Shown here: positions 2,317-46,009 of the stretch, piece after piece | Layout of the letters: each line of letters opens with the position of its first letter | Numbering within the stretch: position 1 is the first letter of the stretch | Assembly (NCBI GenBank): GCA_001768325.1 | Contig: MENQ01000011.1 | Location: 186,001 to 250,000, forward strand | Length of the DNA: 64,000 nt | DNA from: Bacteroidetes bacterium GWC2_46_850 | GTDB lineage: Bacteria > Bacteroidota > Bacteroidia > Bacteroidales > Dysgonomonadaceae | Direction of reading: 5' to 3' | The notes under the pieces: model-generated | Seen by the model: only the letters and a program-made list of their open reading frames with translations | What the model was told of the DNA's origin: nothing | Database searches by the model: none | Position numbers and translations under genes: made by a program

Positions 2317-2351
2317 GAAAATTGTGATATCGATTTAACCGTGAGTATTTG

Positions 2352-4241: not shown

Positions 4242-4267
4242 TGTTTTCTTTTTTTATCGTTCAACCA

Positions 4268-19798: not shown

Positions 19799-20182
19799 TT
19801 AAATGACCAGCTCCTGAAACAGCCGGTCGAAGGTTTTATCCAGATCGGCGGTCTTTCCGGCATGCACCGGCGATGTCTGGATGATGGAACTGCGGGTGGC
19901 AGTAAGCCATCTGAAACGCTCGGGGATATCCAGCAGGGCAATGGGACCGCAATCCTTGTTTCCTTCGGCAATCTGTTTGAGTGTCTCCAGGTTATTCATC
20001 ACATCCTCATAATCCGTTTCTGCCTGCATCAGCCGGTATTTCTCAGGGCACACATGTGTGGCCAGCCGGATATATTTCGCTTCCTTCGAAAAAAGAATCA
20101 GCCCGATATTGAAGAACTCCTCCCGTTCCACTTTCGGCACCATGCGGATCACCGCGTAATGATATAATTTATCCTCTTGCAT
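19799..20182 (-). CDS. DUF3037-family protein
   Basis: A 127-residue soluble protein. The ATG at 20182 is chosen; an in-frame GTG nine bases upstream is less likely. The sequence LYHYAVIRMVPKVEREEFFNIGLILFS is the signature start of DUF3037. A central EKYRLMQAETDYEDV and GPIALLDIPERFRWLTATRSSIIQTSPVHAG follow the family pattern. The start overlaps the end of the HipA-like kinase gene by 14 bases. DUF3037 and small HipA-like kinases frequently occur together; the biochemical role is unknown, and no toxin motif is visible. It converges with the epimerase gene, leaving only 10 bases between them. Confidence 0.88.
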   Translation of the reverse strand: MQEDKLYHYAVIRMVPKVEREEFFNIGLILFSKEAKYIRLATHVCPEKYRLMQAETDYEDVMNNLETLKQIAEGNKDCGPIALLDIPERFRWLTATRSSIIQTSPVHAGKTADLDKTFDRLFQELVI

Positions 20183-23082: not shown

Positions 23083-24171
23083 TCAGGGGTTGATCTCTTC
23101 AATCTTTTTGTAGAGCTCTTCTGCCATTCGAACGAATCCAAGATCTGTAAGATGAATCCCGTCGACGGTTGTCTCGCCGTCGTGTCCGATCAGTTCTGTT
23201 GCCGCAAGATAGTGGATGTTTGAATGTCCTGCTTTCTTCAATTTTTCATACTCTTCCCTTAGCGCTTTATTCTTTGCCTGCACGATTTCAAAGATGTTCC
23301 TGTCGTAGAAGGAGTGGGGGAAGATGATCGACTCCACAAAGAGTACAGGTATATCCTTGTTTTCTTTACGGAGTATCTCCACAAACCGGGCCGTCTTCTC
23401 CCTGATCTGTTCCAGATTGACATTGGGAATGAAATCGAGCACGTAGAGTCCTGCATCCGTGCGGGCACTCATGATTTGGGCAATCTCATAATCGAGTTGA
23501 CCGTTGCCGCTGAAGCCCAGGTTGATTACTTCTCCGTTTATCATTCTACCCAATATATTGCTGTATGACATACCCGCACGCGTGGCACATCCGCCCTGCG
23601 TAATGCTCGTGCCATAACATATCATCGGCTTCTTTCTGGAAGGAATATCCAGGACAGGGGGAGTGATCGTGGCCAGAGAATCCACACCGATGGAGATGGC
23701 TGTGACACCATCGTAGAGTGGCAGGTAAAGCATGTACTCTCTCTCGAGGGGAGTCATTCCGGAGATAATCACTTGCTCATTTTTTTTTGCCGTGGGACGT
23801 CCACTGTTGACAAATTGCCATCGCCGGCCGTTCCAGGCATAGAGGTCAAGCCCCTTGATGCCGGTGTCGGTCATATGATTCATGCTTACATCTTCAAGCA
23901 GCTCCCATCTGGCAGAGATATGCGTGCTGTTGCTGCGAAAACGGAGAGCCAGGCCGGATGTGTTCTTTCCCAGGTGCCATACCGGAGGGCGGCTTACCTC
24001 TTTGAGAGATACCGGGAGGCGTTCGTAGCGTGTTTCGGTCTGTTCGGATGTTTTGCCGATTAGCGGGAAGAGGGTCCCGTCATACCAGCTAGTCTGTGCA
24101 TAGGTGGAAATTGCTGTGCCGATCAGCAGCAGGATGACTGAGGTTAGTTGTTTGTAAGAGATATTCATCAT
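23083..24171 (-). CDS. SGNH/GDSL hydrolase with N-terminal GxDLY domain
   Basis: A secreted esterase of about 363 residues. The start at 24171 (or 24168) gives a signal peptide ending ISTYAQ. The N-terminal beta-sandwich carries GIKGLDLYAW, the GxDLY motif of SGNH N-terminal domains, and the C-terminal domain has the serine in YGTSITQGG, the oxyanion glycine/asparagine in LGFSGNG, and the DxxH pair in VDGIHLTDLG. It probably removes ester groups from glycans. It is the last gene of the large minus-strand locus, 11 bases after the FAD oxidoreductase stop, and abuts the convergent TIM-barrel gene. Confidence 0.88.
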   Translation of the reverse strand: MMNISYKQLTSVILLLIGTAISTYAQTSWYDGTLFPLIGKTSEQTETRYERLPVSLKEVSRPPVWHLGKNTSGLALRFRSNSTHISARWELLEDVSMNHMTDTGIKGLDLYAWNGRRWQFVNSGRPTAKKNEQVIISGMTPLEREYMLYLPLYDGVTAISIGVDSLATITPPVLDIPSRKKPMICYGTSITQGGCATRAGMSYSNILGRMINGEVINLGFSGNGQLDYEIAQIMSARTDAGLYVLDFIPNVNLEQIREKTARFVEILRKENKDIPVLFVESIIFPHSFYDRNIFEIVQAKNKALREEYEKLKKAGHSNIHYLAATELIGHDGETTVDGIHLTDLGFVRMAEELYKKIEEINP

Positions 24172-24182
24172 GTTATATTTTT

Positions 24183-25895
24183 TTATCGGGGCCATTTCGT
24201 TTCGATACCCTGTCGTTCGATTTCACGCTGGAAGTCCTGAAGCAGGGTCTTATCCTCGCGCACAGCCCGGAAAGGCACTTTCTTCCTGCCTGCAAAGGCA
24301 ATCAGACATCCCACAGCCTCGCCAATGCTCCATTCCACGGGGTGTAGCCTGTAACATCCGTTGGTGATATGGGTTGTTCCGATGTTTTTATTGGCCGGCA
24401 ACAGGTTGTTCATGCGTTGTGGAAGCAGTGCTCCCAGTGGTATCTCAAAGGGTAGAGAGGGGAAATCGATGTAGTTGTTACCCCGTGAACTGGGATGCAG
24501 GTCGATATGGTAATATCCGACACCCACGCTGTCAAAGAAGTCTGCAGCTCGTTTGCCTGCTTCCTCTCCAGCGACCAATTTGCGGTTTTCGGCACCTACA
24601 TGTTCTTCCAGTACGGTAAATTCTGCCTTGATTCTTCTGGCTTCACGGATATAGGGATATTTTGCCATGCCATCTTCGGTACCCATTATATCACCCCGTA
24701 GTCTCAGCCCGCGCCATCCTATTCCACCATCCTCACGGGGCGCTTCTGTCTGCAGCCAGTAGAAGAGCGAATGGCTCAGCTGTTTGCCACGCTCGAAGGT
24801 ATCCTGAAACTCTTTTTCCGGAACATCGATCAGGTTTCCAGGGAAGAAGTCGTTCTGTGGCCAGTTCACGATGGTGATGTCACCGGCGTAACTTTCTTTG
24901 GTGAACATCTTGCGGTCGATGATACGCCGGTAGTTCCAGAGGTTGAGCACATCGTCCAGTTCTTTTCCTGTGGGATCAAATCCCAGTCTCTTGGGTTTCA
25001 ATGTGCGGGGGTCGGAGTAGGAGAGATCCAGCAGCCTACCAGACCATGCAGGAGTCATCTCCGGGATATAATTTTTCCAGAATGTGTAGTTTTTCGGCGG
25101 GTCCTGTACGTTGTCTATTCCAGGTTGATAATCCATGGCGAAGCATACCGTGAATGCCTGGTTGTTCATTGGATCCCCTTTCTCCGGAGCATGCAACTCA
25201 CGCGTTTCACTTTTTGATTCGGTCCCTGTGGTGTACTCCGTGCCGGTAAGGGGAAGCAGGTCGCCACACTCGGTGGCATCCACGAAAGTACTTCCGGAGA
25301 GCATCACCCTGTCACCCGTGCGCAGGTTCTGTACTTCCACTGCCCGTACATTGTCGCCCGACACCACCGCACTTGTAGCTTTGTGGTCGGTGAGCAAGAG
25401 CAGCTTGCCAGTACTCATATAAGGTGCAAGCATGTCGCTCATCACAGCCACCGTGACTCTCGGTTCGTGGCAGAGACGGGAAACGCTACCGTTTCCAGGG
25501 TTCAGGTTGGGATCTTGTCGTGCTTTCTCAGTCAGGGGGTAATTGCGACGGTAATAGTCGCGTACCCTATTTCTGTACTCTCTGTAGGAGGGTGGTGCGC
25601 CATGTGTCTCGATCCAGGGATGTTCATCGGGGGGTACACCCTGTTGTGACACCTGGCCGCCAATCCAGTCGGTCTCTTCGGTCATGATTACGCTCAGTCC
25701 GTTGCGGCAGCAGGCCAGTGCTGTCGCAACGCCCCCCATTCCTCCGCCGAGTATAATCACATCGGCGTTCATTTCACGGGATTGGTTGTTTTTTGTATGG
25801 TTGTTCTTGTTCGTGGTGGTGAAAGCAGAGCAACCTTTTATTGCAGCGCTACCTCCAAGAATTGAAGCGTATGTGATAAAACTTCTTCTGTCCAT
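24183..25895 (-). CDS. FAD-dependent oxidoreductase (PF12831 type), exported
   Basis: A flavoprotein of about 570 residues. The ATG at 25895 starts a Tat-like signal MDRRSFITYASILGGSAA followed by GCSAF; an upstream extension is rejected. The Rossmann FAD loop is VIILGGGMGGVATALAC, with TEETDWIGGQVSQQGVPPDEHPWIE as the conserved second block, and TFVDATECGDLLPLTG and RLHPVEWSIGEAVGCLIAFA near the C-terminus. The FAD_oxidored family is frequent in Bacteroidota sugar-utilisation loci but its substrates are mostly unknown. Oxidation of a sugar hydroxyl is plausible. It lies between the acyltransferase and SGNH genes in a tight operon (29 and 11 bases). Confidence 0.88.
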   Translation of the reverse strand: MDRRSFITYASILGGSAAIKGCSAFTTTNKNNHTKNNQSREMNADVIILGGGMGGVATALACCRNGLSVIMTEETDWIGGQVSQQGVPPDEHPWIETHGAPPSYREYRNRVRDYYRRNYPLTEKARQDPNLNPGNGSVSRLCHEPRVTVAVMSDMLAPYMSTGKLLLLTDHKATSAVVSGDNVRAVEVQNLRTGDRVMLSGSTFVDATECGDLLPLTGTEYTTGTESKSETRELHAPEKGDPMNNQAFTVCFAMDYQPGIDNVQDPPKNYTFWKNYIPEMTPAWSGRLLDLSYSDPRTLKPKRLGFDPTGKELDDVLNLWNYRRIIDRKMFTKESYAGDITIVNWPQNDFFPGNLIDVPEKEFQDTFERGKQLSHSLFYWLQTEAPREDGGIGWRGLRLRGDIMGTEDGMAKYPYIREARRIKAEFTVLEEHVGAENRKLVAGEEAGKRAADFFDSVGVGYYHIDLHPSSRGNNYIDFPSLPFEIPLGALLPQRMNNLLPANKNIGTTHITNGCYRLHPVEWSIGEAVGCLIAFAGRKKVPFRAVREDKTLLQDFQREIERQGIETKWPR

Positions 25896-25924
25896 ATCAG
25901 TATGATTTATTTTGATGTGAAAAA

Positions 25925-27337
25925 TTAGACCTTCATGAAAAACTTCTTTCTCGCAGCGATGGCACTGACCCACGCTACCAGGAGGGTGACCAGCACAGCC
26001 TGGATGGTCTGGAGCTCAGTTTGGCAACACGCATGCTGGAAGCAGCGAGTGATACCGGAGAGATGCAGCAGGGGAAGAATGAGATTGCTACCTGCAATGT
26101 ATGCCAACATGGCATTTTTGCCGGACCCGCTGAGCAGAAACATTCCTTTCCTGCAATTCAACTGATCAATGAGTATGATGAAGGCGTACAGTGCGAAGAG
26201 AGCCAACCCCGAAGTAAGCAGCAGGTAGCTGAGTGTGGCTGAATCTTTCTTGATGCCCCCGTTGAGTGGTTCGCTCAGATATCCTGCGATCAGTAAAGCA
26301 AGGGTCATGGGCAGTAGCGTCACGAAAACCTTTTTCCAGGGGTGTTCCCACCTTCTGAGTCCTATCAGGAAAAGAGCAATCAACACCAGCGTGAGTAGGA
26401 ACGTGTGATTCATCTCCCGCTGATAGAGACCCACAACCGATGTCACTATCAGTGCGATTGAAGAGAACAGCAACAGCCAGCTGCCTCCTTTCTTGGTGGT
26501 AATGGTCCCGGTAAAAGAACCCGAGAGGACGGCATCGCGTACGACGATACCGGTATGGATACCTGGAATGATGACGAGCAGGTATTTGAGATAATTCCAG
26601 GAAAGGAGCCAGGGAAGAGGGGAGTATTGATAAATTTGTGCGATCCAGTTGTCGCCAGCACGGCCGGAGAGGAAAAAAGCAGCCATCAGTGCAAATGATA
26701 CCCAGAGTGTCTGCTTGTACTTGCGTTGCAGCAGGTAGAGGAGGGATCCTGCCAGTGCGTTGTTGGCGAGTACCATGATGATGATGTCGAAACGTTGCAA
26801 ACGGAAGGTGACCTTGTCGAAATAGTGCAACGTGCCGAAGAGTCCCACCAAAATGAGAATACCAGCTGTTGCCATCAGGGAACGGTGCCGGCTCCACCAA
26901 CCGGAAGAGGGGGAAGCGAAAAGCAGTACCATCCCGGCCATGGCGAGGAGCGCCAGTGGCCATTGGGCACCTTCACCCGCATTCATGACCCAGGGACGTG
27001 CGTGTTGAGAGAGGATGGCAAAGAGTGCGAGGCCTGTAAAACGGAAGATCAGGTCGCGTCCCATCTGCCAGTGTTTGATCCCTTTGTCGACTTTTCCTCC
27101 CAACGAGAAGGGAATGGCGGCCCCCATGCAGAACAGGAAAAATGGAAAGACCAGGTCGACCCAGGTGATGCCGGGCAAATCGGCCTGGAATTGATGAAGG
27201 GGTGGTGGTACTTGGGCATGGTACATCCATCCCGGTAATGCACCACCGAAGGGAATGTTGGCGGAGAAGACCATCATCAGGATAGCCAGGCCACGCAAAG
27301 CGTCGAGTGCTTCAAAACGGTATTTTTTCTCTTTCAT
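25925..27337 (-). CDS. DUF5009/HGSNAT-like membrane acyltransferase
   Basis: A polytopic membrane protein of 470 residues. The ATG at 27337 is preferred over a TTG six codons upstream. It opens with RFEALDALRGLAILMMVFS, the signature of the heparan-alpha-glucosaminide acetyltransferase-like group, then has PGITWVDLVFPFFLFCMGAAIPF and about ten further hydrophobic helices. Lysosomal HGSNAT transfers an acetyl group across the membrane onto terminal glucosamine; the bacterial DUF5009/DUF1624 relatives have not been assigned substrates. In a locus with an AGE epimerase, transmembrane acetylation of a sugar is a reasonable but untested guess. Tight spacing to both neighbours indicates cotranscription. 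Confidence 0.86.
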   Translation of the reverse strand: MKEKKYRFEALDALRGLAILMMVFSANIPFGGALPGWMYHAQVPPPLHQFQADLPGITWVDLVFPFFLFCMGAAIPFSLGGKVDKGIKHWQMGRDLIFRFTGLALFAILSQHARPWVMNAGEGAQWPLALLAMAGMVLLFASPSSGWWSRHRSLMATAGILILVGLFGTLHYFDKVTFRLQRFDIIIMVLANNALAGSLLYLLQRKYKQTLWVSFALMAAFFLSGRAGDNWIAQIYQYSPLPWLLSWNYLKYLLVIIPGIHTGIVVRDAVLSGSFTGTITTKKGGSWLLLFSSIALIVTSVVGLYQREMNHTFLLTLVLIALFLIGLRRWEHPWKKVFVTLLPMTLALLIAGYLSEPLNGGIKKDSATLSYLLLTSGLALFALYAFIILIDQLNCRKGMFLLSGSGKNAMLAYIAGSNLILPLLHLSGITRCFQHACCQTELQTIQAVLVTLLVAWVSAIAARKKFFMKV

Positions 27338-27359
27338 GCTATTTTGTGCTTCCAAACTG

Positions 27360-28475
27360 TCATGGATAAATCTCGTCGGTACGGAAGTCCCATTTCATCA
27401 CCGTGGCAAGGGGACCCAGTAGCTGTGCCGCAATCTTCAGCTGCCCCCGGTATGAAGGATGCCAGTCGGAGCCAAGGTCATCCTCCTGGTTGAGCAAGTT
27501 ATCGGGAAGACCTGCAAAATAAACGTGTTCATCCTTGAGTTGATTCTTGTAGTATTGTGTAAGTTCCTTCACGTAGGAGAAACAGGGCTCGTTAATCATC
27601 GGACCCACTACGCAAAAGATCGGCACATCGCCATGTGCGCTTCTTACCTTAGATATCAACTCCTTGTAGGCTTTCAGGAAGGAATCCCTGTCCGGGTGTG
27701 GAGAGGTGGAGAAATCGTTCGTGCCCAGGTTGATTACGACACAGTCTGTTTTCCATTGATCAAAGTCCCACAATTGCGAGGGGTCATTGTCGAGTGTGCG
27801 ATCGTAACGGCCAGGCATGGTTTCCTTTGGGTCTGACACAGGTTTCTCATCGCCATAATTTCGTACTACTCCTTTTCCGGAGTGAGCAATGAAATGGGCT
27901 TCGGCGTTGAAAGCCCTTGCCAGGATGGCGGCATAGCTCTTGTAGTTGTTTTCGGTTTCGGGCTTAAAACGTTCGTCCCGGTTGCTCCCCTCGGTACCGT
28001 AACCACAAGTGATGGAGTTGCCGATGAACTCGATCCGCCTGTCTGTTTTCCGGCTGGAGGGAAAAACTTCTCCTTTGTCGTCGAGGATGAATCCCATGAA
28101 GCGTGCCTTGCCCATGTCGGCTTCGGTGCGCTTGGTCAGCAGCAGCTCGTGATATGCCGCATCGGCTGTCGGCCGGAAATAGAGTGTGGTGTCATGTGGA
28201 GCACTGAAGACCGATACCAACTCGCCGTCCAAGAACAGGTTGAAGTAGTCTCTCTCTCCTCCCTCGATTCTCAGTCCGATCTGTTGACTTTTGAAACGGC
28301 ATCCGATGGATACTCCCGGCCAGTCGAAAAGAACCGCATGGGGGTTGCTTTTGTCCACACGGCCCATGTAATTGATCGCCGGATGGGTGGGAGGAATCAG
28401 GTTTTGAGCGTGGCCGTTGCCGAAAGACAACAGAAGTGCCAGGAGCAACCATGATTGTATCGTTTTCTTTTTCAT
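27360..28475 (-). CDS. CE2-like carbohydrate esterase (SGNH hydrolase)
   Basis: A 371-residue secreted esterase with signal peptide MKKKTIQSWLLLALLLSFGNGHAQ. The N-terminal jelly-roll (about residues 30-140, INYMGRVD, GVSIGCRFK, DYFNLFLDG) and the C-terminal SGNH domain match carbohydrate esterase family 2. The catalytic serine lies in IEFIGNSITCGYG, the oxyanion residues in VINLGTNDFS, and the D/H pair in GSDWHPSYRGQ. CE2 enzymes remove O-acetyl groups from xylan, glucomannan or peptidoglycan-like glycans. It is 6 bases after the MFS gene and 22 bases before the acyltransferase gene. Confidence 0.88.
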   Translation of the reverse strand: MKKKTIQSWLLLALLLSFGNGHAQNLIPPTHPAINYMGRVDKSNPHAVLFDWPGVSIGCRFKSQQIGLRIEGGERDYFNLFLDGELVSVFSAPHDTTLYFRPTADAAYHELLLTKRTEADMGKARFMGFILDDKGEVFPSSRKTDRRIEFIGNSITCGYGTEGSNRDERFKPETENNYKSYAAILARAFNAEAHFIAHSGKGVVRNYGDEKPVSDPKETMPGRYDRTLDNDPSQLWDFDQWKTDCVVINLGTNDFSTSPHPDRDSFLKAYKELISKVRSAHGDVPIFCVVGPMINEPCFSYVKELTQYYKNQLKDEHVYFAGLPDNLLNQEDDLGSDWHPSYRGQLKIAAQLLGPLATVMKWDFRTDEIYP

Positions 28476-28481
28476 GGGTTC

Positions 28482-29885
28482 TTATCTCTTTTTTAACCAG
28501 AAGCGTTCAATCTCTTCAAGTGATTTTCCTGCAGTCTCCGGCATCATCTTCCAGACGATCAGCATGTAAGGAATACACATGAGAGCAAAGAGGAAGAAAG
28601 TTCCTGCAGGTGTAGCGTTCTCCAGCAGCCAGGGGGTAAGTTGTCCGATCAGGTAGGTGCCAATCCAAAGCGAGAGTCCTGCGATGGACATGGCCAGTCC
28701 ACGAATCTTTGTGGGATACATTTCGGAGAGGAATACAAAGATAACGGCACTGATGGAGCCGGCGGTGAAGAAGATGTATGCCAGAAAGCAGCCTAGCAGG
28801 AAGAGGCTGGTCATCCCCCAGGCCTCTCCCTTGAGAAAGTAGAGCCCGATTAGGATGAGGGAGAGAATCATGCCGGTTACGCCGATGTATACCAGCTTCT
28901 TGCGTCCCACCTTGTCGATAATGAGCAGCGCCAGCACCGTGGTACCCATGTTCACCACACCAATGAGGGACTGGTAGAAGAGAGAATCATCGCTGGATAG
29001 ACCACTGGTTTCAAAGATGGAAGGACCATAGTAGAGGACGGCGTTCACTCCCATGAATTGTCCCAGGATAGCGATGGCGGATCCGATCAGTACGGCACGG
29101 AAGATGCCGGGCGAGAACAGCAGCTTGCGGTCAGATTTTCCTTCCGAATTGAGCATTGCCCGCGTATCGTTGATCTGGCTCTCCACCACTGTGCTATCTC
29201 CGTAAATCTTCGAAAAGATAAGGGCCGCATGCTCTTCCCTTCTTTTGACAATGAGCCAGCGTGGACTTTCGGGAATGAAGAAAATTATGAGGAAGAAAAG
29301 TAGTGCGGGCAATGTCTCTGCACCCAGCATGCCTCTCCATATCTCCGTCCCAAAGATCTTCGTCAGCAAGGGGTTGGATGAGATAAAGCCAGCAGACTGT
29401 TCCAGCAGATAGTAGTTCATCAGGTAGGCACCTAGGAAGCCGACGGTGACTGCCAACTGATAGAGGGATACCATCCGTCCACGGTGGGAGGCTGGTGATA
29501 CCTCAGAGATGTAAAGAGGGCAGACGATGGAAACGATGCCAATGCCGATACCACCGACGATGCGAAAGATGACCAGCTGATCGAGGTTGGCCGAAATGGC
29601 ACAGCCCGCAGCAGATACCGTAAAGAGAATGGCTGAGAGGATCATGGTCCATTTCCTTCCAAAGCGGTCGCTCAGCGCCCCGGCGAAGATCACCCCGGAG
29701 ATGGAACCTACCAGGGCACATCCCACGTACCAACCGCTTTGGAGGGTGGTGAGCTGGAACTGTGAAGACACTTGTGAGACGGTGCCTGAGATGACCGCCG
29801 TGTCGTAGCCGAAAAGAAAACCTCCCAGGGCGGCTACAACTGACAGGAAAGAGACGTAGAGGATGTTGTTTTTTTTCTGCATCAT
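28482..29885 (-). CDS. Sugar porter-family MFS transporter
   Basis: A 467-residue inner-membrane symporter with twelve helices. Sugar-porter motifs are complete: GGFLFGYDTAVISG in helix 1, DRFGRKW in loop 2-3, PLYISEVSPASHRGRMV after helix 4, PESPRWLIVKRREEHA in the central loop, GxNAVLYYGPSIFE in helix 7, and PETAGKSLEEIERFW at the end. It resembles bacterial XylE/GlcP-type carriers for a monosaccharide. It would bring the sugar released by the locus into the cytoplasm. It begins 10 bases after the DUF4434 stop. Specificity cannot be read from sequence. Confidence 0.93.
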   Translation of the reverse strand: MMQKKNNILYVSFLSVVAALGGFLFGYDTAVISGTVSQVSSQFQLTTLQSGWYVGCALVGSISGVIFAGALSDRFGRKWTMILSAILFTVSAAGCAISANLDQLVIFRIVGGIGIGIVSIVCPLYISEVSPASHRGRMVSLYQLAVTVGFLGAYLMNYYLLEQSAGFISSNPLLTKIFGTEIWRGMLGAETLPALLFFLIIFFIPESPRWLIVKRREEHAALIFSKIYGDSTVVESQINDTRAMLNSEGKSDRKLLFSPGIFRAVLIGSAIAILGQFMGVNAVLYYGPSIFETSGLSSDDSLFYQSLIGVVNMGTTVLALLIIDKVGRKKLVYIGVTGMILSLILIGLYFLKGEAWGMTSLFLLGCFLAYIFFTAGSISAVIFVFLSEMYPTKIRGLAMSIAGLSLWIGTYLIGQLTPWLLENATPAGTFFLFALMCIPYMLIVWKMMPETAGKSLEEIERFWLKKR

Positions 29886-29894
29886 ACTGCTTGC

Positions 29895-31016
29895 TTAAAG
29901 GTTGAAATATTCCCTGTATCGGTTGTAGAGATGCCCAGCCTGAATATAGGCCGACTGGGGACTCATAAAGTGAGAGAACTCGAAGGTGATCGCCTTGACG
30001 TAGTTGGCCCGCTTGGCAGCCTCCAGCTTAAGGCGTAGCTTATCGAACTTGATGGGGAGGAACTTGATTGGCATGTCCCGGTCAAATGTCTCGGCATTGG
30101 TCCAGCATTCCATGCCATAGCGGTCTGCCAGCTTCTTATTCACTTCGAAGAAGGCATCCAGTTCGTTGTAGTCGATGTGTCCATCCTGGAAGGCGACGGC
30201 ATCTACCACCTCGTGGATGCCGGCAAAGATTTCGTCCCATTCCTTCTCGTGCTGCTGTACCGATACCGCCTCCTCTTTCGAGAGAGTGGAACCGCTTGCT
30301 GCGACAGCTTTCTTGCCGTCGATCCAGGGAGAGATAAAAGTGGGAAGACCTCCTGATACATCTTTGCATTGCTTACCCATGGCATGAAAGGCTCCGATAG
30401 CACCTTTGGTGGCACGACTGATCTCACCGCTGACATACCATCCGCCGAAGCTTTTGTACTTCTCACCGTAGTTTTTCCACACCTCATCGATCACATATCG
30501 GTTGTCCTCGATCTCATGGCTCATATCACCTGTAGCCCAATAGTGACCGGAATCGTACAGACCAAAATAAAACTTCATGCCATGCTTCTCGGCCAGACGT
30601 AAGAAGAGATCTACCAGATCCACAGAAGGCATGTAGCAGCCCTTGTCCAGCAGATATTTTGAAGGATAGGTGATAAATTTCTTGTAACCCGACCGGATCA
30701 TGATTACCGTATCGATGCCGATAGCTTTCATGTATTGAAAATCAAGATCCCATTCTGCTTCTCCCCAGTTTTGGTGGGGAATGTCATGAGAGATCTCATC
30801 GAGGAAGGCCCCGGTGATCTGCAGACCGTTATTTTTGGGTACGATCAGCGTGCTCTTTAGTGACTCATCTTTCCGCACTGAGCCCGGTGAGTTGGTGGTA
30901 GCACCCTGACGGTTGTTGCCAGTACAGGCAGCCAAACTAGATGTGACGGCAATAGATGCGCCCGCGAGTGCTGTTTTTTTGATAAAATCGCGACGGTTGT
31001 TCTTTTCTGTATGCAT
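29895..31016 (-). CDS. DUF4434 protein, Tat lipoprotein (paralogue A)
   Basis: A 373-residue protein of the DUF4434 family, a TIM-barrel group with similarity to glycoside hydrolases. The N-terminus NNRRDFIKKTALAGAS...SLAAC combines a twin-arginine signal with a lipobox, so it is exported folded and lipid-anchored. The conserved core FLDEISHDIPHQNWGEAEW, VIMIRSGYKKF, FYFGLYDSGHYW, GGWYVSGEISR, VSVQQHEKEWDEI and CWTNAETFDRDMPI is shared with the paralogue at 43710-44798. Two acidic positions, E of SGEISR and E of NAETFDRD, are retained in both and are candidate catalytic residues. No natural substrate is known for the family. Confidence 0.87.
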   Translation of the reverse strand: MHTEKNNRRDFIKKTALAGASIAVTSSLAACTGNNRQGATTNSPGSVRKDESLKSTLIVPKNNGLQITGAFLDEISHDIPHQNWGEAEWDLDFQYMKAIGIDTVIMIRSGYKKFITYPSKYLLDKGCYMPSVDLVDLFLRLAEKHGMKFYFGLYDSGHYWATGDMSHEIEDNRYVIDEVWKNYGEKYKSFGGWYVSGEISRATKGAIGAFHAMGKQCKDVSGGLPTFISPWIDGKKAVAASGSTLSKEEAVSVQQHEKEWDEIFAGIHEVVDAVAFQDGHIDYNELDAFFEVNKKLADRYGMECWTNAETFDRDMPIKFLPIKFDKLRLKLEAAKRANYVKAITFEFSHFMSPQSAYIQAGHLYNRYREYFNL

Positions 31017-31069
31017 TTCGGTCGATGTTATGATATTTTTTTTGTTGTACTACCTTTTTTTTAATAAAC

Positions 31070-32542: not shown

Positions 32543-32546
32543 CGTC

Positions 32547-33890: not shown

Positions 33891-33952
33891 TTTTCTAAAA
33901 TTGTCTGTTTATAAATTCTCTATTTGTAAATCATATTTTGAAGGAGGAGGAA

Positions 33953-35347: not shown

Positions 35348-35394
35348 GTGATGTAATCTTTGTGATGATTGCTGAATTTCGACTTCTCATGCTT

Positions 35395-36996: not shown

Positions 36997-37212
36997 TTTG
37001 TTTGCTGTTTACTTGTTGAGGCTTCTATCATGTGCGAATTGTTGGTAACTGTTTATCAACACCGTCTACCATGATATATGCTGGTTAAAAAAAAGTTGTC
37101 CAGGCTCTGTATGCAACTAAATCAAAGTTGGTACCAAAGGTAACACAAATCTTCTTTTTAATCAGGTACAAAACCCGGACAACTAACTCATTCATTAACT
37201 CCGAATCTCATT
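36997..37212. other. Internal regulatory gap within the locus
   Basis: 216 bases without a gene between the DUF5018 stop and the ADP-ribosylglycohydrolase-family start. It holds a -7 box at 37135-37142 and a distant 7-bp stem GGACAAC (37177-37183) / GTTGTCC (37095-37101). On the minus strand the inner arm is followed by eight T, a feature of intrinsic terminators, but the 75-base loop makes that uncertain. Confidence 0.55.
37135..37142 (-). promoter_or_regulatory. Candidate internal promoter (-7 box) of the distal locus
   Basis: The minus strand reads TACCTTTG, an exact TAnnTTTG match. The predicted leader is about 135 bases, ending at the ATG at 36996. No clear -33 element. Confidence 0.55.
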
Positions 37213-38880: not shown

Positions 38881-38895
38881 GCGGTTCTATTTTTT

Positions 38896-40515
38896 TTATT
38901 TCCAACTGTCATATTGTTCAATCAGTGAGTTGTTTGCCAACTCTGCATCGGGGATTGGGAGGATATAGTTCTTCGCGGAGAACTTTCGGTCCTGATAATC
39001 CACATCGATGTATTCATAGTTGTCGCCAACAATCTTGAATCCGTGGGCACGGGTATTGTTGTATTCGATGTGTGCTAGCTCCCATCTTCTCATGTCCCAG
39101 AAGAGATGACCTTCATATGCCAATTCCACTTTCCGTTCGTTTCTGTAATCGTTGAACCATTCATTACCGGAGGAGTTCTTAGCTGGCAGGTTTACACGGG
39201 CGCGGACCTCATTCATCGCATCTCTTGCCTCACTCATCTTGTTGAGTCGGAAGGCAGCTTCCGCCTTGTTAAGCAATACTTCTGCGTAACGGATCTCCAC
39301 CCAGCTCTGGGTACTTGGTATACCTTTTACATCGATCAGCGATTCGTCCATTAGTTTTTTCAAGTAATAACCTGTGGTGGTAAGTCCGTAGCTGTAGGGT
39401 TGTTCCCTGTATGCCATGAAGGTACCATTGGTCCCGTTCACCGAGTTTTGCATCACCTTTCCTTTCCAGGTGCTCCCCGGATAGATTACAGTGGCTTTGA
39501 AACGCGGTTCCAGATCTTCGTAGGGAGGGCGGGTGGCGTTGGCGGTATAGTAGGGTGTCCAGTCCATTTTGGTTCCGTCGGCTTTTTCATAACTCTCCAC
39601 CATTTCCTGGGTGGGCGTTCCAAGTCCTCCGAACTCGTACCCATCGCTCAAGGGCACGTAATCCTTGTCGAAGGTGTGATTGGGTCCCAGAATGTTATAC
39701 TTGAACTCAAGGATTGTTTCCTTATTGCTTCCCTTCCAAGCTTGGGTATAGTCATCCACCAGTTCAAATTTCCCTGATTTCACCACTGCATCTGCAGCGT
39801 CATAGGCCGATTGCCAGCGTTCTGCAAATAGCATGGCTCTCGATTTGAATGCCAGAGCCGCATACTTGGTCACTCTTCCGTTGTCTTGTCCTGTCCACGA
39901 TTCAGGCAGGTTGGCGATGGCAAAATCGAGGTCGCTCTCGATAAGATCCCATGTTGCTTCGCTTGAACTGCGTGCTTTGTCCTTTTCCATCTCTTCAATG
40001 GAGGTATAAAGGATCACGCCGTCGTGACGCCTTGCCAGTTGGAAGTAGATGAAACTACGAAAGAAGAGCACTTGGGCTTTCCACTTTGTGTTCACTTCTT
40101 CGGGGAACTGACCGTATTGTTCCATGGAGTGAAGGAATTCATTCATCCTGCGTATCTTGTTGTAGGCATCGCTCCAAACACTGTAGAATCCCCCAGTAGC
40201 AGTGGTGATCAGGTTCGGGTCAAAAACATAGTTGTTGGGATGACCTGCTTTGTGTCCTGCCGCATAGGAACCATATTTAAAGGTGTTGGTGAAGCTCTCA
40301 GACAGGTTTCCACTGGCTTGTGCCGACCCGAACTGACCATACTGGTTCAGGTAAGTATAAAAACCATTTATATAGAGATCCACGCTCGACTCATCCTCCC
40401 AAATCACTTTGTCGGTCAGTTTATCAGTAGGAGTCAGGTCCAGCCAATCCGTGCAACTGCTGAAGATGATCACAGCAGTGGTCAGGTAGAGTAAAGTCCT
40501 TAATATTTTTTTCAT
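38896..40515 (-). CDS. SusD/RagB-family lipoprotein of the large locus
   Basis: A 539-residue surface lipoprotein (lipobox IFSSCT) with the SusD start DWLDLTPTDKLTDKVIWEDESSVDLYINGFY. The helical TPR region includes FFRSFIYFQLARRHDGV and ALAFKSRAMLFAE, and the C-terminus has WVEIRYAEVLLNKAEAAFRL and ARVNLPA...NDYRNERKVELAYEGHLFWDMRRW, both diagnostic for the RagB/SusD family. It forms the substrate-binding lid of the SusC transporter 20 bases upstream. The sequence is of the classical SusD_RagB type, unlike the SusD-like_2 protein at 2352. Confidence 0.95.
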   Translation of the reverse strand: MKKILRTLLYLTTAVIIFSSCTDWLDLTPTDKLTDKVIWEDESSVDLYINGFYTYLNQYGQFGSAQASGNLSESFTNTFKYGSYAAGHKAGHPNNYVFDPNLITTATGGFYSVWSDAYNKIRRMNEFLHSMEQYGQFPEEVNTKWKAQVLFFRSFIYFQLARRHDGVILYTSIEEMEKDKARSSSEATWDLIESDLDFAIANLPESWTGQDNGRVTKYAALAFKSRAMLFAERWQSAYDAADAVVKSGKFELVDDYTQAWKGSNKETILEFKYNILGPNHTFDKDYVPLSDGYEFGGLGTPTQEMVESYEKADGTKMDWTPYYTANATRPPYEDLEPRFKATVIYPGSTWKGKVMQNSVNGTNGTFMAYREQPYSYGLTTTGYYLKKLMDESLIDVKGIPSTQSWVEIRYAEVLLNKAEAAFRLNKMSEARDAMNEVRARVNLPAKNSSGNEWFNDYRNERKVELAYEGHLFWDMRRWELAHIEYNNTRAHGFKIVGDNYEYIDVDYQDRKFSAKNYILPIPDAELANNSLIEQYDSWK

Positions 40516-40535
40516 TTTCTGTCAGTTTAAAGTGA

Positions 40536-43500
40536 TTATAATGAGAAGTTAAGCCCGAAAGAAAGGGTTTTCTGCTGCGGGTAGTATCCGTTGTTCACTC
40601 CGGGTTGTTCCGGGTCGATGTTGTACTTTGTCAGTCCACTGAAAGTAAAGAGGTTGGAACCTTCCATAAAGAGCCTGATTTTATCTACACCCGCTTTGCG
40701 TGTGAGGGAATTTGGAATGGTATATCCCAGCTGGAATGATTTTACGCGGAGATAGTTCCCGTTTCTGTACCAGAAAGTCGATGAGTAGGCGTTGTTTGTG
40801 CTGACCGTCACGAGTGAAAGGCGAGGAAATTCCGCATTCTGATTGTCGGGTCGCCAGGAATTTTCGGGAACAAACACCGGAGTGTTGCCTCCGTGATAGA
40901 ACATCCGGGTAAATACGGTGTTATCCATCACACCCGAAGAGTAGACACCTGTCAGTGCAACAGTACGTCCCAAACCCGATTGCAGCAGGATATCGAAGTC
41001 GAATCCCTTCCAATCACCGTTCAGGTTAAGCGAAGTCTGAAATTTTGCATAGGGGCTTTTTCCCACGTATCCCATGTCTTGTGCATAGGTGATTTTGCCA
41101 TCTCCGTTCCGGTCTTTGTACTTGATGTAACCGGGCAATACCGGTGAACCTGGAATGGTTGCAGCATTATCGATTTCCTCCTGTGTCTGGAAGAGGCCTT
41201 CGGAAATGAATCCAAGCTGTGAGCCCACCTCTTTGCCAGTCAGTTTGAGATAATCGGGGGTGTTCTCCGAGTCGCCTGCATAGTAGAGCCACTTGCGGTT
41301 GGCCAGGGTTCCGATCCACTTCACACCATAACGGAAGTCTCCGATCTTGTTGTTGTGCGTGATGGTGAAGTCAAATCCCCTGTAGTCAATCTTGTTGACA
41401 TTGTCGGTGCTGAAATAATACCCACCCATGGATGGAGGATAAGAGCCGCCCACGCTGGCCAGCAAATCATACTGATACTTATAGAATACATCCAGTTCCA
41501 CACCGAGTAAGCCTCTCCAAGCCATGAACTCGACGCCGGCATTGTAGGTGATCGCTTTGGCCCAGGAGAGATAGGGATTGCCGAGCGTACCGGAATAGAT
41601 CATGCTTTGTGCCTGGTTGTTTAAAATCAGCGCGTTGGATGAGATGTTCATCAGGTTCAGATACTGAAAAGCACTCACGGCTGACGTGGCTGTTTTTCCG
41701 ATACCGCCTCTTAGCTTGAGGTTATCGATCCAGTCAGCCTGGAACCATTCCTCGTTGTTCATTCTCCATCCTGCAGAGACTGCAGGCAGGTTGACCCATT
41801 GTGAGCCGGCCATTCCACTAAAGAGATAACTACCGTCGCGGCGAAGAGATGCTTCCAGCAAATAACGGTTGTCATAATCGTAATTGAGCCTTCCCACGAA
41901 ACCGACCAGACGCGATTGGCCGCTGCCACCGGAGATGGAAGGAACTCTCTCTTCCCCGTTGCCTGTGGTGTTGGTGATCATGTCCAATTCATCCAGACTA
42001 AGGAAGTTCAGGCCATAGCCTGTGGCTCCCAGGGTATTGGAAAAAGCATTCCGAGTTTCGGCAAGACCGAAGAGATTGATTTTGTGCTTGTCGAACTGAC
42101 GGTCGTAGGTAAAGCTCGATTGTGTAACCACGTTGGTGGAACTGTGTGCACTTTCCGTCAGGGCCGTGTTCCCCGAGTTATTTTTGAAAGAGGTGTAGCT
42201 GATAGCCTCGGTGGTAGCCACTGGTAAAGCCCCCATCATCGTCTCGAAGGGTATCGTGAGCGATTTGTTGAACTGGAAGAACTTGTCATAGGCTCCCATG
42301 AATTTCAGGCTCAGCCCCTCCATCCAGGGGGCATCGTAGTTGAGCGAGAAGTTAGTCTGGATCGTGGTGTTCCTTGGCCTATTGTAACCCGACTGGTAGA
42401 TCGCTGCGAGCGGGCTTACAGGTGAAGAGGCGGTACGCGTGGAAGTGTAATACTCCTTTCCATCGTTACCCACAATCGTTTTGGGTATATAAGGGAGCGC
42501 TCTTACTGCCTGTTGGGGAATGTTGTGCCAGTCGTTGGGGTCAGCCGAATAGTTAGGGCGGTCATGTTCGTCTAGACGCCCAGCTACGTTCATTATCAGG
42601 CTGAGGTTGTCGGTGATCTTGGCATCGATGTTGGCCCTCATGTTGTAACGGGTATAATTGAAATTGTCCACGTTACCCTTCTGTTGAAAAGCACTCAATG
42701 AAGAGAAGAATTTCACCTTTTCGGTACCACCTGTGGCACTCACGTTGTGGTTCATGTTTCTTCCTATGCCGAATACTTCGTCGTACCAGTTGGTGTTGCC
42801 CCAGCCATCGACTCCAGCTTTCATCTTTTCTACTTGCGCCGAAGTGAATACAGGGTCATCACCATCCATCTCCCGGGCCATATTGTACCAGTAAGCATAT
42901 CCCGGACCGTCGAGCCACTTGATCTGGTTGGCGTTTTGGCTGATACCATAGTTGCCGTTGTAGGAAATACCCAGTGTTCCATCCTTACCCCGTTTGGTGG
43001 TGACAATGACCACGGAGGTGGCATTCAACCCGTATACGGAGGCAGAAGTAGCATCCTTGAGGATAGATATGGATTCGATCTCATTGGGATCAATCTCGTT
43101 GATGCTTCTGATTACACCATCCACGATATAGGTGGCACCTTCACCTCTTACGAGCAATGAGGCACCATCTTGTCCTGGTTGCCCCGACTGTTGCAGGGAG
43201 GTGACACCGGCTACCCTGGCTCCCAACACGTTGGTTACACCCACCACGGGAGCCTTGATAAGTTCTGTATCTGAGAGGGTCGAAACAGCGCCTGTTACAC
43301 TGGTCCTGCGTTGTGTGCCATAGCCCACTACAATGACCTCATCCAGTAGCTCGGTATCCGCTTGCATGGTTACATTGACAAAATTCCTCCCGTTAAGGGG
43401 AACTTCCAGTTCTTTGAAACCAACATAAGAAAAGAGCAGCGTGCTGCTTGTTGATGGTACTGATAAGTTGAATTCACCGTCAATGTCTGTAACGGTACCT

Positions 43501-43685
43501 TGACGAGTATTCTTGAGTACGACGTTTACGCCAATCAGAGTTTCCCCTGTCGCATCCACTACCTTTCCTCTCACATTGACCTGCGCATAAGTGATCAGTG
43601 TTGAGAGAATGAAGAGCGTAAGGAACAGTCCCCGTAAGGAGCTGTATCTCCATTTAATAGATCGGTTTTTGCTTTTCATTTGCAT
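40536..43685 (-). CDS. SusC/RagA-family TonB-linked transporter of the large locus
   Basis: A TonB-dependent outer-membrane importer of 1049 residues (1047 if the second ATG at 43679 is used). Order of parts: signal peptide to YAQ, CarboxypepD_reg-like domain VNVRGKVVDATGETLIGVNV (residues 36-115), TonB-box/plug with LLDEVIVVGYGTQRRTSVTGAVS, the plug ARVAGVTSLQQSGQPGQDGASLLVRG and SILKDATSASVYG, then a 22-strand barrel ending in LSFGLNFSL. It would pull oligosaccharide bound by the SusD partner into the periplasm. It starts 24 bases after the DUF4434 stop, so it belongs to the AGE-headed operon. Confidence 0.95.
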   Translation of the reverse strand: MQMKSKNRSIKWRYSSLRGLFLTLFILSTLITYAQVNVRGKVVDATGETLIGVNVVLKNTRQGTVTDIDGEFNLSVPSTSSTLLFSYVGFKELEVPLNGRNFVNVTMQADTELLDEVIVVGYGTQRRTSVTGAVSTLSDTELIKAPVVGVTNVLGARVAGVTSLQQSGQPGQDGASLLVRGEGATYIVDGVIRSINEIDPNEIESISILKDATSASVYGLNATSVVIVTTKRGKDGTLGISYNGNYGISQNANQIKWLDGPGYAYWYNMAREMDGDDPVFTSAQVEKMKAGVDGWGNTNWYDEVFGIGRNMNHNVSATGGTEKVKFFSSLSAFQQKGNVDNFNYTRYNMRANIDAKITDNLSLIMNVAGRLDEHDRPNYSADPNDWHNIPQQAVRALPYIPKTIVGNDGKEYYTSTRTASSPVSPLAAIYQSGYNRPRNTTIQTNFSLNYDAPWMEGLSLKFMGAYDKFFQFNKSLTIPFETMMGALPVATTEAISYTSFKNNSGNTALTESAHSSTNVVTQSSFTYDRQFDKHKINLFGLAETRNAFSNTLGATGYGLNFLSLDELDMITNTTGNGEERVPSISGGSGQSRLVGFVGRLNYDYDNRYLLEASLRRDGSYLFSGMAGSQWVNLPAVSAGWRMNNEEWFQADWIDNLKLRGGIGKTATSAVSAFQYLNLMNISSNALILNNQAQSMIYSGTLGNPYLSWAKAITYNAGVEFMAWRGLLGVELDVFYKYQYDLLASVGGSYPPSMGGYYFSTDNVNKIDYRGFDFTITHNNKIGDFRYGVKWIGTLANRKWLYYAGDSENTPDYLKLTGKEVGSQLGFISEGLFQTQEEIDNAATIPGSPVLPGYIKYKDRNGDGKITYAQDMGYVGKSPYAKFQTSLNLNGDWKGFDFDILLQSGLGRTVALTGVYSSGVMDNTVFTRMFYHGGNTPVFVPENSWRPDNQNAEFPRLSLVTVSTNNAYSSTFWYRNGNYLRVKSFQLGYTIPNSLTRKAGVDKIRLFMEGSNLFTFSGLTKYNIDPEQPGVNNGYYPQQKTLSFGLNFSL

Positions 43686-43709
43686 TTGTTTTTGTAATTA
43701 CTGTTATTT

Positions 43710-44798
43710 TTAGATGGTGAAATGTTCTCTGTATCTTTCATAAAGGAATTTCGCCTGTGGATAAGTTGAGTTAGGACTCATAAAATGTGAAAATTCGAAC
43801 GTAATGGCGTCTTCCATGCCGGCTAATCTTGCAGCTTCAAGTTTAAGCAACAGTTTTTCCCATTTGATTGGAAGAAAGCGGATGGGCATATCGCGGTCAA
43901 ATGATTCGATGTTTGTCCAACATCGCATTTGATGGGCATCTGCCAACTTTTTATTCACTTCCAGATAATCGGCCAGTTCATGATAATTGACCTGTCCGTC
44001 CTGAAATGCAAGAATGTCTATGGCGCCTTCCACATTTGTTAGAATCTCATCCCACTCTTTTTCGTGCTCCTGCACTGAGATTGCGCTGTCGCCGCTCATT
44101 ACCTGATCTGTTTTGACTCCATGGATATAGGGTGAGACCAAGGTGGTAAGATTACCCGACACTTTCTTTGCATGTTTCCCAACCTCTGCATATATTTTCG
44201 ACATGTTCTTTGTCCGCCTGCTGATCTCTTGTGAGAGGTACCATCCTTTAAAAGATGGATGATGGCCATACTTTGCCCAAACCTCATCGATCAGTCTCAA
44301 ATTGAGATCAATCTCTTTCTGGAATTGCCCCTCAATCCAATAGCGTCCTGAATCATACATGCCGAACATGAAGTTCATGTGGTGTTTATCGGCAAGTGTA
44401 AGAAACATTTCTGTCAGGTCAACGGGTGGATAGTAGACATCTTCCGTTTTTAGAATTGATTCAAAGGGAGAGGCGATCCACCAACCCAGTCCGGAACGAA
44501 TCATCACAACTGTGTTGATTCCGATCTCCTTCATCGATTGAAAATCCCGATCCCATTCCTTCACTCCCCAATTCTGATGTGGAATATCCCAGCTCACTTC
44601 ATCCAGAAATGTGGCATGTATGGGCATTCCTTTAAAAATACCGGGAGTTTCAAACCTTTTGTTCGAGAGGAGGTCATTTTTTTTAGCAAGCTCCACCCCT
44701 TTTTCTGTGGCATAGTTGCCACTGTGCAATGATTGTGCAGCGAGTACTCCAGCCGATCCCAAAACTGCACTTTTGATAAAATTTCTTCTGCTTTTCAT
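43710..44798 (-). CDS. DUF4434 protein, Tat-exported (paralogue B)
   Basis: A 362-residue protein of DUF4434 with a twin-arginine signal MKSRRNFIKSAVLGSAG and no lipobox, so it is probably soluble in the periplasm, in contrast to the lipid-anchored paralogue A. Shared blocks are FLDEVSWDIPHQNWGVKEWDRDF, VVMIRSGLGWW, FMFGMYDSGRYW, GWYLSQEISR, ISVQEHEKEWDEI and CWTNIESFDRDMPIRFLPI, nearly word-for-word. The candidate acidic residues at both sites are retained. Its start overlaps the AGE epimerase stop (ATGA), so the two are coupled. Different localisation of two paralogues in one locus suggests sequential action on the same type of linkage. Confidence 0.87.
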   Translation of the reverse strand: MKSRRNFIKSAVLGSAGVLAAQSLHSGNYATEKGVELAKKNDLLSNKRFETPGIFKGMPIHATFLDEVSWDIPHQNWGVKEWDRDFQSMKEIGINTVVMIRSGLGWWIASPFESILKTEDVYYPPVDLTEMFLTLADKHHMNFMFGMYDSGRYWIEGQFQKEIDLNLRLIDEVWAKYGHHPSFKGWYLSQEISRRTKNMSKIYAEVGKHAKKVSGNLTTLVSPYIHGVKTDQVMSGDSAISVQEHEKEWDEILTNVEGAIDILAFQDGQVNYHELADYLEVNKKLADAHQMRCWTNIESFDRDMPIRFLPIKWEKLLLKLEAARLAGMEDAITFEFSHFMSPNSTYPQAKFLYERYREHFTI

Positions 44799-46009
44799 CG
44801 AACGGTTGTCTTTGTTTTGAGAATCTGCTCATCCGTTAACTGATCGATTTTTTCCAAAAGAGTCCAACATTGATACAATCCTCTGGGCACGTGGAAGCAA
44901 CCCTTCCATTTTCCACCTTTCAGGTCGAGCAGTACTTCTCCCTGCCGGTTGAGGTAGCCCCACCATTCCGGGTATTCCGGATCTTTGAAATGCTCCCAGG
45001 TATAATTGTGAACCTTTTCAAACCATGAAAGACATTCCTGAGAGCCAGTAAGCTGATATCCTTTCAGCAAGGATATCAATGTTTCGATATGCACCCACCA
45101 TAATTTTTGATCCCACTCCAGCTGTTGAGGAGGAAATCCTTTCCGGTCCATGAAATAGAAAATGCCGCCATATTTTTTATCCCAACCATATTCCAGTGTT
45201 TTCAATGTGGTTTCCACTGCTTTGTTAATCAGTTCAGGACGATGTAGCCTTACACCGAGATCCATGATAAACCACATTGCCTCAATGGCATGGCCGGGAT
45301 TCATCAGCCTCCCATCGAAGGAGTCGGAGAGTGAGCCGTCGATGTTCAAGTTCTCCACAATCAGGCCACCCATCTCAGGATGGCGGAAGACCTCCATCAC
45401 TTCGTGAATGCATTTTTCCATGATCTGCACCAGGAAGTCCTCTTCCAGTAAGTGCTCGATTTCCAGGGCCAGGTTGCAGAGAATCATCGGCAGGGAGAAT
45501 CCTTTCAATGAGCGTCCCCCCGGCGACACCTTATTCCACTTACCTTTCGGGTTGTTCTGCTTGGAAAGAATGATGTCAAATGTTTTTTTTGCTATTTCCG
45601 CATATTCACTGTTCCCTGTCGCCAGACTCAACTGACCAAATGCCATGGTGGCGAATGTGTAGGAAAAGATATTATAGGGTTCAATTAACGGTTTTCCTTC
45701 CCGTGTAAGGGAAAAATACCAGTTATATTGCCCGTCATGCCCATTTTTTTTCAGGAATTCAGCCCCCTGTAAGGCACAATCAAGCCATTCCTGTCGTTTT
45801 TCAACCTTGTTGTAGAGCATCGAGAAAAGCCATACTTCCCTTGCCTGGAGCCAGATAAACTTGTCGGTGTCATACACGTTACCCTGTCGGTCGAGGCATG
45901 TAAAATAACCACCAAATTCTTTATCCTGGGAAAAGTTGAGCCAAAATGGTATTACATTGTCAAAAAGCTCACCTTTATATTGAGCAAGAAGAGTGTTTAG
46001 ATTTTTCAT
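44795..46009 (-). CDS. AGE-family N-acylglucosamine 2-epimerase-like enzyme
   Basis: A 404-residue cytoplasmic (alpha/alpha)6-barrel isomerase of the acylglucosamine 2-epimerase/RENBP family. The catalytic histidines are H240 (NPGHAIEAMW) and H373 (CFHVPRGLYQCW), with H307 (WWVHIET) as a third conserved position. The N-terminal IWLQAREVWLFSMLY is typical. Such enzymes interconvert GlcNAc and ManNAc or related 2-epimers such as mannose and glucose. It is the first gene of the large locus, and divergent from the TonB receptor whose operator lies in the shared 323-base region. The substrate sugar of the locus is probably an N-acetylated or 2-epimerisable hexose. Confidence 0.92.
   Translation of the reverse strand: MKNLNTLLAQYKGELFDNVIPFWLNFSQDKEFGGYFTCLDRQGNVYDTDKFIWLQAREVWLFSMLYNKVEKRQEWLDCALQGAEFLKKNGHDGQYNWYFSLTREGKPLIEPYNIFSYTFATMAFGQLSLATGNSEYAEIAKKTFDIILSKQNNPKGKWNKVSPGGRSLKGFSLPMILCNLALEIEHLLEEDFLVQIMEKCIHEVMEVFRHPEMGGLIVENLNIDGSLSDSFDGRLMNPGHAIEAMWFIMDLGVRLHRPELINKAVETTLKTLEYGWDKKYGGIFYFMDRKGFPPQQLEWDQKLWWVHIETLISLLKGYQLTGSQECLSWFEKVHNYTWEHFKDPEYPEWWGYLNRQGEVLLDLKGGKWKGCFHVPRGLYQCWTLLEKIDQLTDEQILKTKTTVR

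Follow-up and report, generated by a model that had tools for sequence, protein, structure and literature searches.

Between window positions 23083 and 46009, a stretch of the minus strand in Bacteroidetes bacterium GWC2_46_850 carries 15 contiguous open reading frames (ORFs), as an earlier sequence-only reading of this DNA had called them. The window is the whole 64,000-nucleotide stretch analysed (contig MENQ01000011.1, positions 186,001 to 250,000), and its numbering is used throughout; the source genome measures 3.75 Mb. The 14 gaps between these ORFs range from -49 to 62 bases, apart from a single gap of 216 bases ahead of the gene for an ADP-ribosylglycohydrolase-family (ADPRG) lipoprotein. 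The presence of tandem SusC and SusD genes is the hallmark of a SusC/D-type polysaccharide utilisation locus (PUL), and the profile matches of the whole set agree with the earlier description of a polysaccharide-type locus made of poorly characterised enzymes. As a system it is of an ordinary kind; its enzyme set is unusual and recurs.

Genes and export signals of the locus

The first gene in the direction of transcription encodes an N-acyl-D-glucosamine 2-epimerase without an export signal (AGE; 44795..46009; NCBIfam equivalog NF052547, 718 bits against a cut-off of 600). Its stop is overlapped by 4 bases by the ORF of DUF4434-a (43710..44798; PF14488, 235 bits), which has a Tat-type signal with RRNF close to the N-terminus. 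These are followed by a SusC-type TonB-dependent importer with plug and CarbopepD_reg_2 domains (40536..43685; TIGR04056, 828 bits, cut-off 368), a SusD-type surface lipoprotein (38896..40515; PF07980, PF14322) and a DUF5018 lipoprotein presumed to bind glycan at the surface (37213..38880; PF16410, 374 bits). Next come the ADPRG lipoprotein, an accessory member (35395..36996; PF03747, 112 bits), and two lipoproteins combining GHL10 and DUF4985 domains: GHL10a (33953..35347; PF02638, 58.0 bits; PF16373, 118 bits) and GHL10b (32547..33890; 66.8 and 108 bits), the cut-off for PF02638 being 27.9. The calcineurin-like metallophosphoesterase (MPE; 31070..32554) is built as MetallophosN-Metallophos-MetallophosC (PF16371, PF00149, PF16370) and precedes DUF4434-b, a Tat lipoprotein (29895..31016; PF14488, 284 bits), and a sugar porter of the major facilitator superfamily (MFS; Sugar_tr), an inner-membrane importer (28482..29885; TIGR00879, 355 bits, cut-off 238). 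The last four genes encode a CE2-like SGNH esterase (27360..28475; CE2_N PF17996, 72.7 bits, cut-off 27.9; GDSL PF13472), a DUF5009 membrane protein (25925..27355; PF16401, 216 bits), an FAD-dependent oxidoreductase (FADox; 24183..25973; PF12831, 317 bits) and a GxDLY-type SGNH esterase (23083..24195; PF14606, PF14607).

Pfam and NCBIfam matches thus bear out most assignments of the sequence-only reading, namely the SusC/D pair, surface lipoprotein, importer, epimerase, paired DUF4434 and GHL10 proteins, ADPRG, MPE and FADox. Both of the SGNH esterases it named are present, but the family placement of one had been missed: it is CE2-like, scoring 131 bits against the AxeC2 model, below the cut-off of 500. 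CE2 is an established CAZy esterase family. The proposal of an exported HGSNAT-like acyltransferase survives only in part, as a distant likeness of the DUF5009 protein to NagX (45 bits, cut-off 480); the protein looks membrane-bound rather than like a secreted enzyme. As the same reading had noted, no member of an established glycoside hydrolase (GH) or polysaccharide lyase family was found among the 15 proteins by Pfam (E up to 0.01) or NCBIfam. The GHL10 proteins also match the hypothetical families GHL6 (below cut-off) and DUF4015 (Pfam, E up to 0.01).

When the N-termini were read, a lipobox, a Sec-like or a Tat-like signal was seen on all enzymes except AGE and the membrane protein DUF5009. 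Automatic signal flags miss FADox owing to its called ORF start; the true start is probably at 25895, which would yield a Tat lipoprotein signal (MDRRSF..KGC). Pfam showed no linked regulator in the 15 genes or in five genes scanned on the flanks; ROK or FecR adjoins some relatives of the locus. Rfam at the gathering score gave no match in the window, which holds no tRNA either.

Recurrence in other Bacteroidota and a probable counterpart in B. thetaiotaomicron

Relatives were collected by searching named species genomes once with eight orthologues of GHL10a; of the 244 returned, the 80 best were retained as loci (labelled with L-numbers). Family counts over these loci are tblastn matches at 1e-8; 56 of the 80 are at least 18 kb long, and the short ones lower the counts. 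ORFs in the fetched stretches come from a crude calling script with an occasional preference for long antisense ORFs, hence the use of tblastn tallies. The same gene order was sought in these genomes, and SusC-SusD-DUF5018-GHL10a was found within 10 kb in 67 of the 80 loci, all fetched through GHL10a alone. One locus (L103) is a near-identical copy of that in the window, and the GHL10a of Proteiniphilum sp. UBA5267 is identical to the window's; the source genome is Proteiniphilum-like, a genus within Dysgonomonadaceae. DUF5018 was detected in 77 loci, SusD in 73, SusC in 69, MPE in 56, DUF4434 in 54, FADox in 44, AGE in 43, DUF5009 in 35, CE2 and NAGPA (a phosphodiester glycosidase) in 28 each, GxDLY in 17, SSF in 16, the MFS porter in 13, SASA and ROK in 11 each, GH20 in 8 and ADPRG in 3; the GHL10b count (80/80) is uninformative since its query cross-matches GHL10a. 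Accessory ORFs were scanned with Pfam (126 of 129 from 73 operon runs; three of 1175-1186 residues were omitted for length), giving NAGPA 21, SASA 10, GH20 7 and ROK 7. Hosts include Proteiniphilum, Tannerella forsythia, Bacteroides pyogenes and B. faecis, Hoylesella, Alistipes, Labilibaculum, Maribellus and Echinicola, among others. The distribution is patchy: out of 393 genomes sampled from the order, GHL10a matches 17, the source genome counted. Since the locus type recurs, its description as an isolated undescribed locus was rejected. Beside one close relative a PIG-L-type de-N-acetylase adjoins the locus (L106:18530-19426).

Several of the enzymes also occur joined in one polypeptide, each case confirmed by Pfam: GHL10-MPE in B. 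pyogenes (L122:12814-15489), MPE-FADox in Bacteroidales bacterium CF (L179:14238-17474) and FADox-GHL10 in an uncultured Bacteroidales (L153:14664-17795). Because of these natural fusions with GHL10 and MPE, FADox appears tied to the glycan-cutting and phosphoester-cutting steps. It has no close solved relative in the PDB, the best match being at 4e-4.

A probable counterpart is found in Bacteroides thetaiotaomicron, where BT0446-BT0454 are annotated as DUF5009, two family-10 glycosylhydrolases, a calcineurin-like phosphoesterase, SusD, a TonB receptor and a sugar-porter MFS protein, a correspondence that was drawn by annotation only. The operon BT0453-BT0449 has been published as induced in vivo, the inducing substrate being unknown there; the earlier claim of an undescribed system is therefore not supported as it was put. 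BT0446-BT0449 and BT0451-BT0454, with matching products, are reported as lowered together in an iron-starvation comparison (PMC10434189). BT0451-BT0461 have been labelled an N-glycan PUL (PMC7531118). Near by number, BT0438 is reported to be a GH89 alpha-N-acetylglucosaminidase (PMC8225759), and BT0439, a neighbouring SusC, was detected on galacto- and human milk oligosaccharides (PMC5238430). At the sequence level, B. faecis (L171) has SusC, SusD, DUF5018, GHL10, MPE, DUF4434, DUF5009 and GxDLY. Five loci from Bacteroides (L121-L123, L169, L171) carry GHL10 as a fusion with MPE and have SASA and NAGPA in addition; their fetched stretches showed no AGE, FADox or ADPRG. The locus is of a known kind; in the open-licence literature, which leaves aside most subscription papers, no substrate beyond the N-glycan label was found for this gene set.

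The ADPRG lipoprotein does not define the locus, and was rejected in that role with only 3 of the 80 GHL10a loci having it. Residues D83, D84, D152, E156, D158, D300 and D302 are invariant across 26 aligned sequences, and D83, D84, D152, D300 and D302 are presumably the acidic metal-binding residues; no solved relative was found by sequence. Relatives of the protein occur in 32 of 101 genomes of the family (at 86% identity or more in 3, the source genome counted), and among 20 surrounding stretches read only L033 and L034 show the present locus. No paper joining ADPRG and PUL terms was found in the open-licence literature. Other recurring loci of the family (L037-L052) hold ADPRG lipoproteins, sometimes two and often with SusC/D, along with proteins of about 300-340 residues that have no match to the window's.

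Proposed substrate and pathway

All enzyme activities, like the substrate, are what we infer from the gene set. The best explanation is that the locus serves a glycan rich in N-acetylhexosamine (HexNAc) that bears phosphodiesters, either interrupting or decorating it, and O-acyl esters; we put its probability at about 0.5, and the substrate class of HexNAc, phosphodiester and ester is moderately supported. The HexNAc part is supported by AGE exceeding its equivalog cut-off while the genome has a sialic-acid-type locus of its own with a second AGE, and the phosphodiester part by the enrichment of NAGPA beside MPE in the relatives. The earlier suggestion of a substrate carrying acyl and phosphate groups is likewise supported, the relatives adding MPE, NAGPA and SASA at the tallies given above.

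AGE matches structures 2gz6 and 6f04 in the PDB, and R57, H240 and H373, which we take to be catalytic, are invariant in 18 aligned sequences including the window's. In sialic-acid loci of Bacteroidota this enzyme turns lyase-made N-acetylmannosamine (ManNAc) into N-acetylglucosamine (GlcNAc). The sialic-acid (nan) PUL shares SusC/D, an MFS importer, AGE and SGNH esterases with the present locus; unlike it, the 15 genes include no lyase, mutarotase, sialidase or GH20, and in particular no N-acetylneuraminate lyase (DHDPS family) by Pfam. In the same genome a separate sialic-acid-type locus starts at window position 61754 and continues, in L198, to the contig end. It has a lyase-like DHDPS gene (61754-62680; 118 bits, below the lyase cut-off of 281) and an MFS gene (62690-63967) and, beyond the window, a cyclically permuted mutarotase (NANM; TIGR03548, 284 bits, cut-off 243), a GH20, a GDSL/SASA esterase, a GDSL esterase, a NanU-like SusD (273 bits, below the cut-off of 425), a SusC and, divided between two contig ends, a second AGE. 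The nanA model itself gave four matches in the genome, none over cut-off, and also matches in all 14 control genomes. A part for the AGE of the 15-gene locus in sialic-acid catabolism was rejected, as the separate nan-type locus has its own; with no lyase in the locus and this second AGE elsewhere, its ManNAc or GlcNAc most likely comes from a different source.

NAGPA occurs in 28 of the 80 relatives by tblastn (one of the four queries, from L120, had no Pfam check of its own) and in 21 of the 126 accessory ORFs by Pfam, against about 0.1 expected. The expectation is taken from 49 Pfam matches in 42 of 198 Bacteroidales genomes, assumed to be 3.7 Mb each, with 1.465 Mb of loci in total, and the count is inflated by kinship among loci; those with NAGPA are nevertheless spread over the names Proteiniphilum, Porphyromonadaceae, Bacteroides, Hoylesella, Alistipes and Maribellus. 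In the catalytic part of MPE the GNHD and GHMH motifs are present. Calcineurin-like surface phosphoesterases fused to NAGPA are on record, and PhoD, of the same superfamily, is cited as cutting teichoic-acid phosphodiesters (PMC11188070).

The two GHL10 proteins give a hint of where such a glycan might come from. A profile search with GHL10a placed Cwp19 first among solved chains (3e-7); a likeness to an Anoxybacillus alpha-amylase in a single-sequence PDB search (6e-5 over 126 residues) was weak and was set aside. DigH is, we take it, also a GHL10 protein. Cwp19 is described as a peptidoglycan lytic transglycosylase (PMC6016235) and DigH as a hydrolase specific for denuded peptidoglycan glycans (PMC12288456). 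With these acting on peptidoglycan glycans and the epimerase and MPE belonging to ordinary families, the non-standard chemistry earlier proposed for the locus is not borne out; of all the parts, FADox is the likeliest sign of unusual chemistry. A more specific form of the substrate, peptidoglycan glycan strands with teichoic-acid-type linkage units from the walls of other bacteria, is the favoured reading and is put forward tentatively. Terms for teichoic acid or ManNAc combined with PUL brought up nothing on point in the titles and abstract openings of the open-licence literature.

For DUF4434, on which the open-licence literature yielded no paper, the arrangement of the genes is informative. 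A solved relative of DUF4434-b, 4h41 (E 1e-192 over 323 residues), is a close family member that its depositors named a putative alpha-L-fucosidase. Invariant acids in 32 sequences include D73, E74, D155, E198, D278 and E309, and close DUF4434 proteins occur in 20 of 395 phylum genomes, the source genome counted. After filtering by strand, length and 50% identity, the 80 loci gave 47 DUF4434 ORFs: 23 are leaderless, starting right at the domain, 19 have a Tat-type RR motif and 5 have neither. AGE directly follows 19 of the 23 leaderless forms; it follows none of the 19 Tat forms and precedes four. Loci with the Tat form only have the MFS sugar porter in 10 of 15 cases and SSF in none, and leaderless-only loci have SSF in 13 of 22 and the porter in none (Fisher p 9e-6 for form against porter, kinship ignored); five loci whose form is unclear and one having both were left out. 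From this we infer that the hydrolysis step may move with the importer, taking place outside where a monosaccharide porter is present and inside where a larger piece is imported. On a GHL10a tree of 41 loci (2 of 43 lacked a usable GHL10a row) the DUF4434 form switches 3 or more times and the transporter twice. A further 17 DUF4434 loci lie outside the GHL10-type loci (two, L235 and L236, being shorter than 20 kb); DUF4434 is clearly leaderless in 15 and has an unclear start in two, and the fetched stretches hold AGE in 9, SSF in 6, DUF5009 in 6 and NAGPA in 5, two further weak NAGPA matches (L233, L234) being probably a sorting tail. Six loci of this distant set (L231-L234, L237, L239), three with NAGPA, combine DUF4434 with AGE and a GH38 alpha-mannosidase. 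It is a doubtful proposal, less likely than a wall polymer as such, that DUF4434 is a new glycosidase family freeing ManNAc or a like HexNAc, with its step shifting between periplasm and cytoplasm as MFS and SSF importers are exchanged, within a PUL that eats phosphodiester-linked wall polymers of other bacteria.

Several observations weigh against this set of proposals. No NAGPA was found in the window's own genome, and the usual first D-x-H motif was not found in the catalytic part of MPE. Asp196 of Cwp19 has been held likely to be catalytic or to stabilise an intermediate (PMC5765458); Asp195 is kept as Asp228 of GHL10a, but Asp196 aligns with Arg229, and GHL10b has the same DR motif. Where Cwp19 reads DGVHFDDYFYP, both window paralogues instead read DGIILDRxR(F/Y)D. 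They share the GHL10 family with it by profile, and differ further in the added DUF4985 and in being lipoproteins within a PUL; these alignments place them on a divergent branch, and Cwp19 is no basis for assigning their activity. No muramic-acid enzyme was found among the 15 genes by Pfam. The importer pattern reduces to 2 independent pairs which, both agreeing, give p 0.5 and cannot reach significance, and in two of the 17 distant loci (L225, L231) a general MFS_1 gene that is not of the sugar-porter type lies near DUF4434. Of the AGE copies tested, four from other loci pass the cut-off of 600, but three from GH38 loci score 384-410 bits. Lastly, the distant loci contain the alpha-mannosidase families GH38 (6/17) and GH92 (2/17), two of the GH38 matches by Pfam and the remaining matches by tblastn, and these point to a mannose-type glycan.

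The mannosidases are the strongest evidence for an alternative in which the substrate is a phosphorylated mannose-rich glycan of the GlcNAc-1-P-6-Man or Man-P-Man type, as on some eukaryotic glycoproteins, with NAGPA uncovering it and DUF4434 being mannosidase-like. Consistent with this, a Bacteroides NAGPA taken from such a locus hits the uncovering enzyme of human type in the PDB (6pki, 6pkg; E about 5e-6); its likeness to structure 3ohg is only distant (1e-13). In the 80 PUL-type loci, however, GH38 is found in none and GH92 in one, no mannosidase family was found by Pfam in the 15 genes, and the window's AGE passes the cut-off for an N-acylglucosamine epimerase, all of which makes this alternative unlikely. 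Alternatively, the substrate could be a capsule or exopolysaccharide of HexNAc-1-phosphate repeats rather than a wall polymer. The set of NAGPA, MPE, esterases and AGE would suit an O-acylated chain of this kind; it would leave the two GHL10 proteins unexplained, their relative Cwp19 acting on peptidoglycan, and we consider it somewhat less probable again. An accessory host-sialoglycan or N-glycan locus, with AGE handling sialate-derived ManNAc and SASA/SGNH esterases stripping sialate O-acetyls, would accord with SASA in 11 of the 80 loci, a neuraminidase-associated domain in 2 of the 126 accessory ORFs, the N-glycan label of BT0451-BT0461 and the detection of BT0439 on milk oligosaccharides, but is improbable given no lyase or sialidase family in the 15 genes by Pfam, the separate sialic-acid-type locus with its own AGE, and relatives in Labilibaculum, Maribellus and Echinicola, which are marine or otherwise not host-bound.

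For a HexNAc-rich, phosphodiester-bearing and O-acylated glycan, the pathway could proceed as follows. SusD, DUF5018 and SusC would bind oligosaccharides and bring them in, the backbone would be cut by the two GHL10 lipoproteins, the SGNH and CE2-like esterases would remove acyl groups and MPE, in relatives also NAGPA, would open the phosphodiesters. The exported DUF4434 proteins would release HexNAc, which the MFS porter would then take in, and AGE, with DUF4434 as its supplier, would convert ManNAc to GlcNAc for central metabolism; FADox, DUF5009 and ADPRG are given no step in this order. If this is true, a shared pathway would emerge for the DUF4434, GHL10-DUF4985, DUF5018 and MetallophosN/C families, and a gut operon that is induced in vivo could be tested directly in B. 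thetaiotaomicron, a tractable commensal. Furthermore, a PUL acting on wall polymers would be one route for Bacteroidota to recycle dead bacteria.

Neighbouring genes in the window

Convergent with the locus, an exported xylose-isomerase-like TIM barrel protein is encoded on the plus strand at 22219-23082; its relatives are found in 4 of the 80 loci, and in L106, L112 and L113 they lie just before SusC. A HipA_2-type kinase (PF20613; 20169-20969, minus strand) overlaps a small unscanned ORF (19799-20191), possibly as a toxin-antitoxin-like pair. At 904-7720, on the minus strand, another SusC/D pair (SusD-like_2) is followed downstream by an MFS gene.

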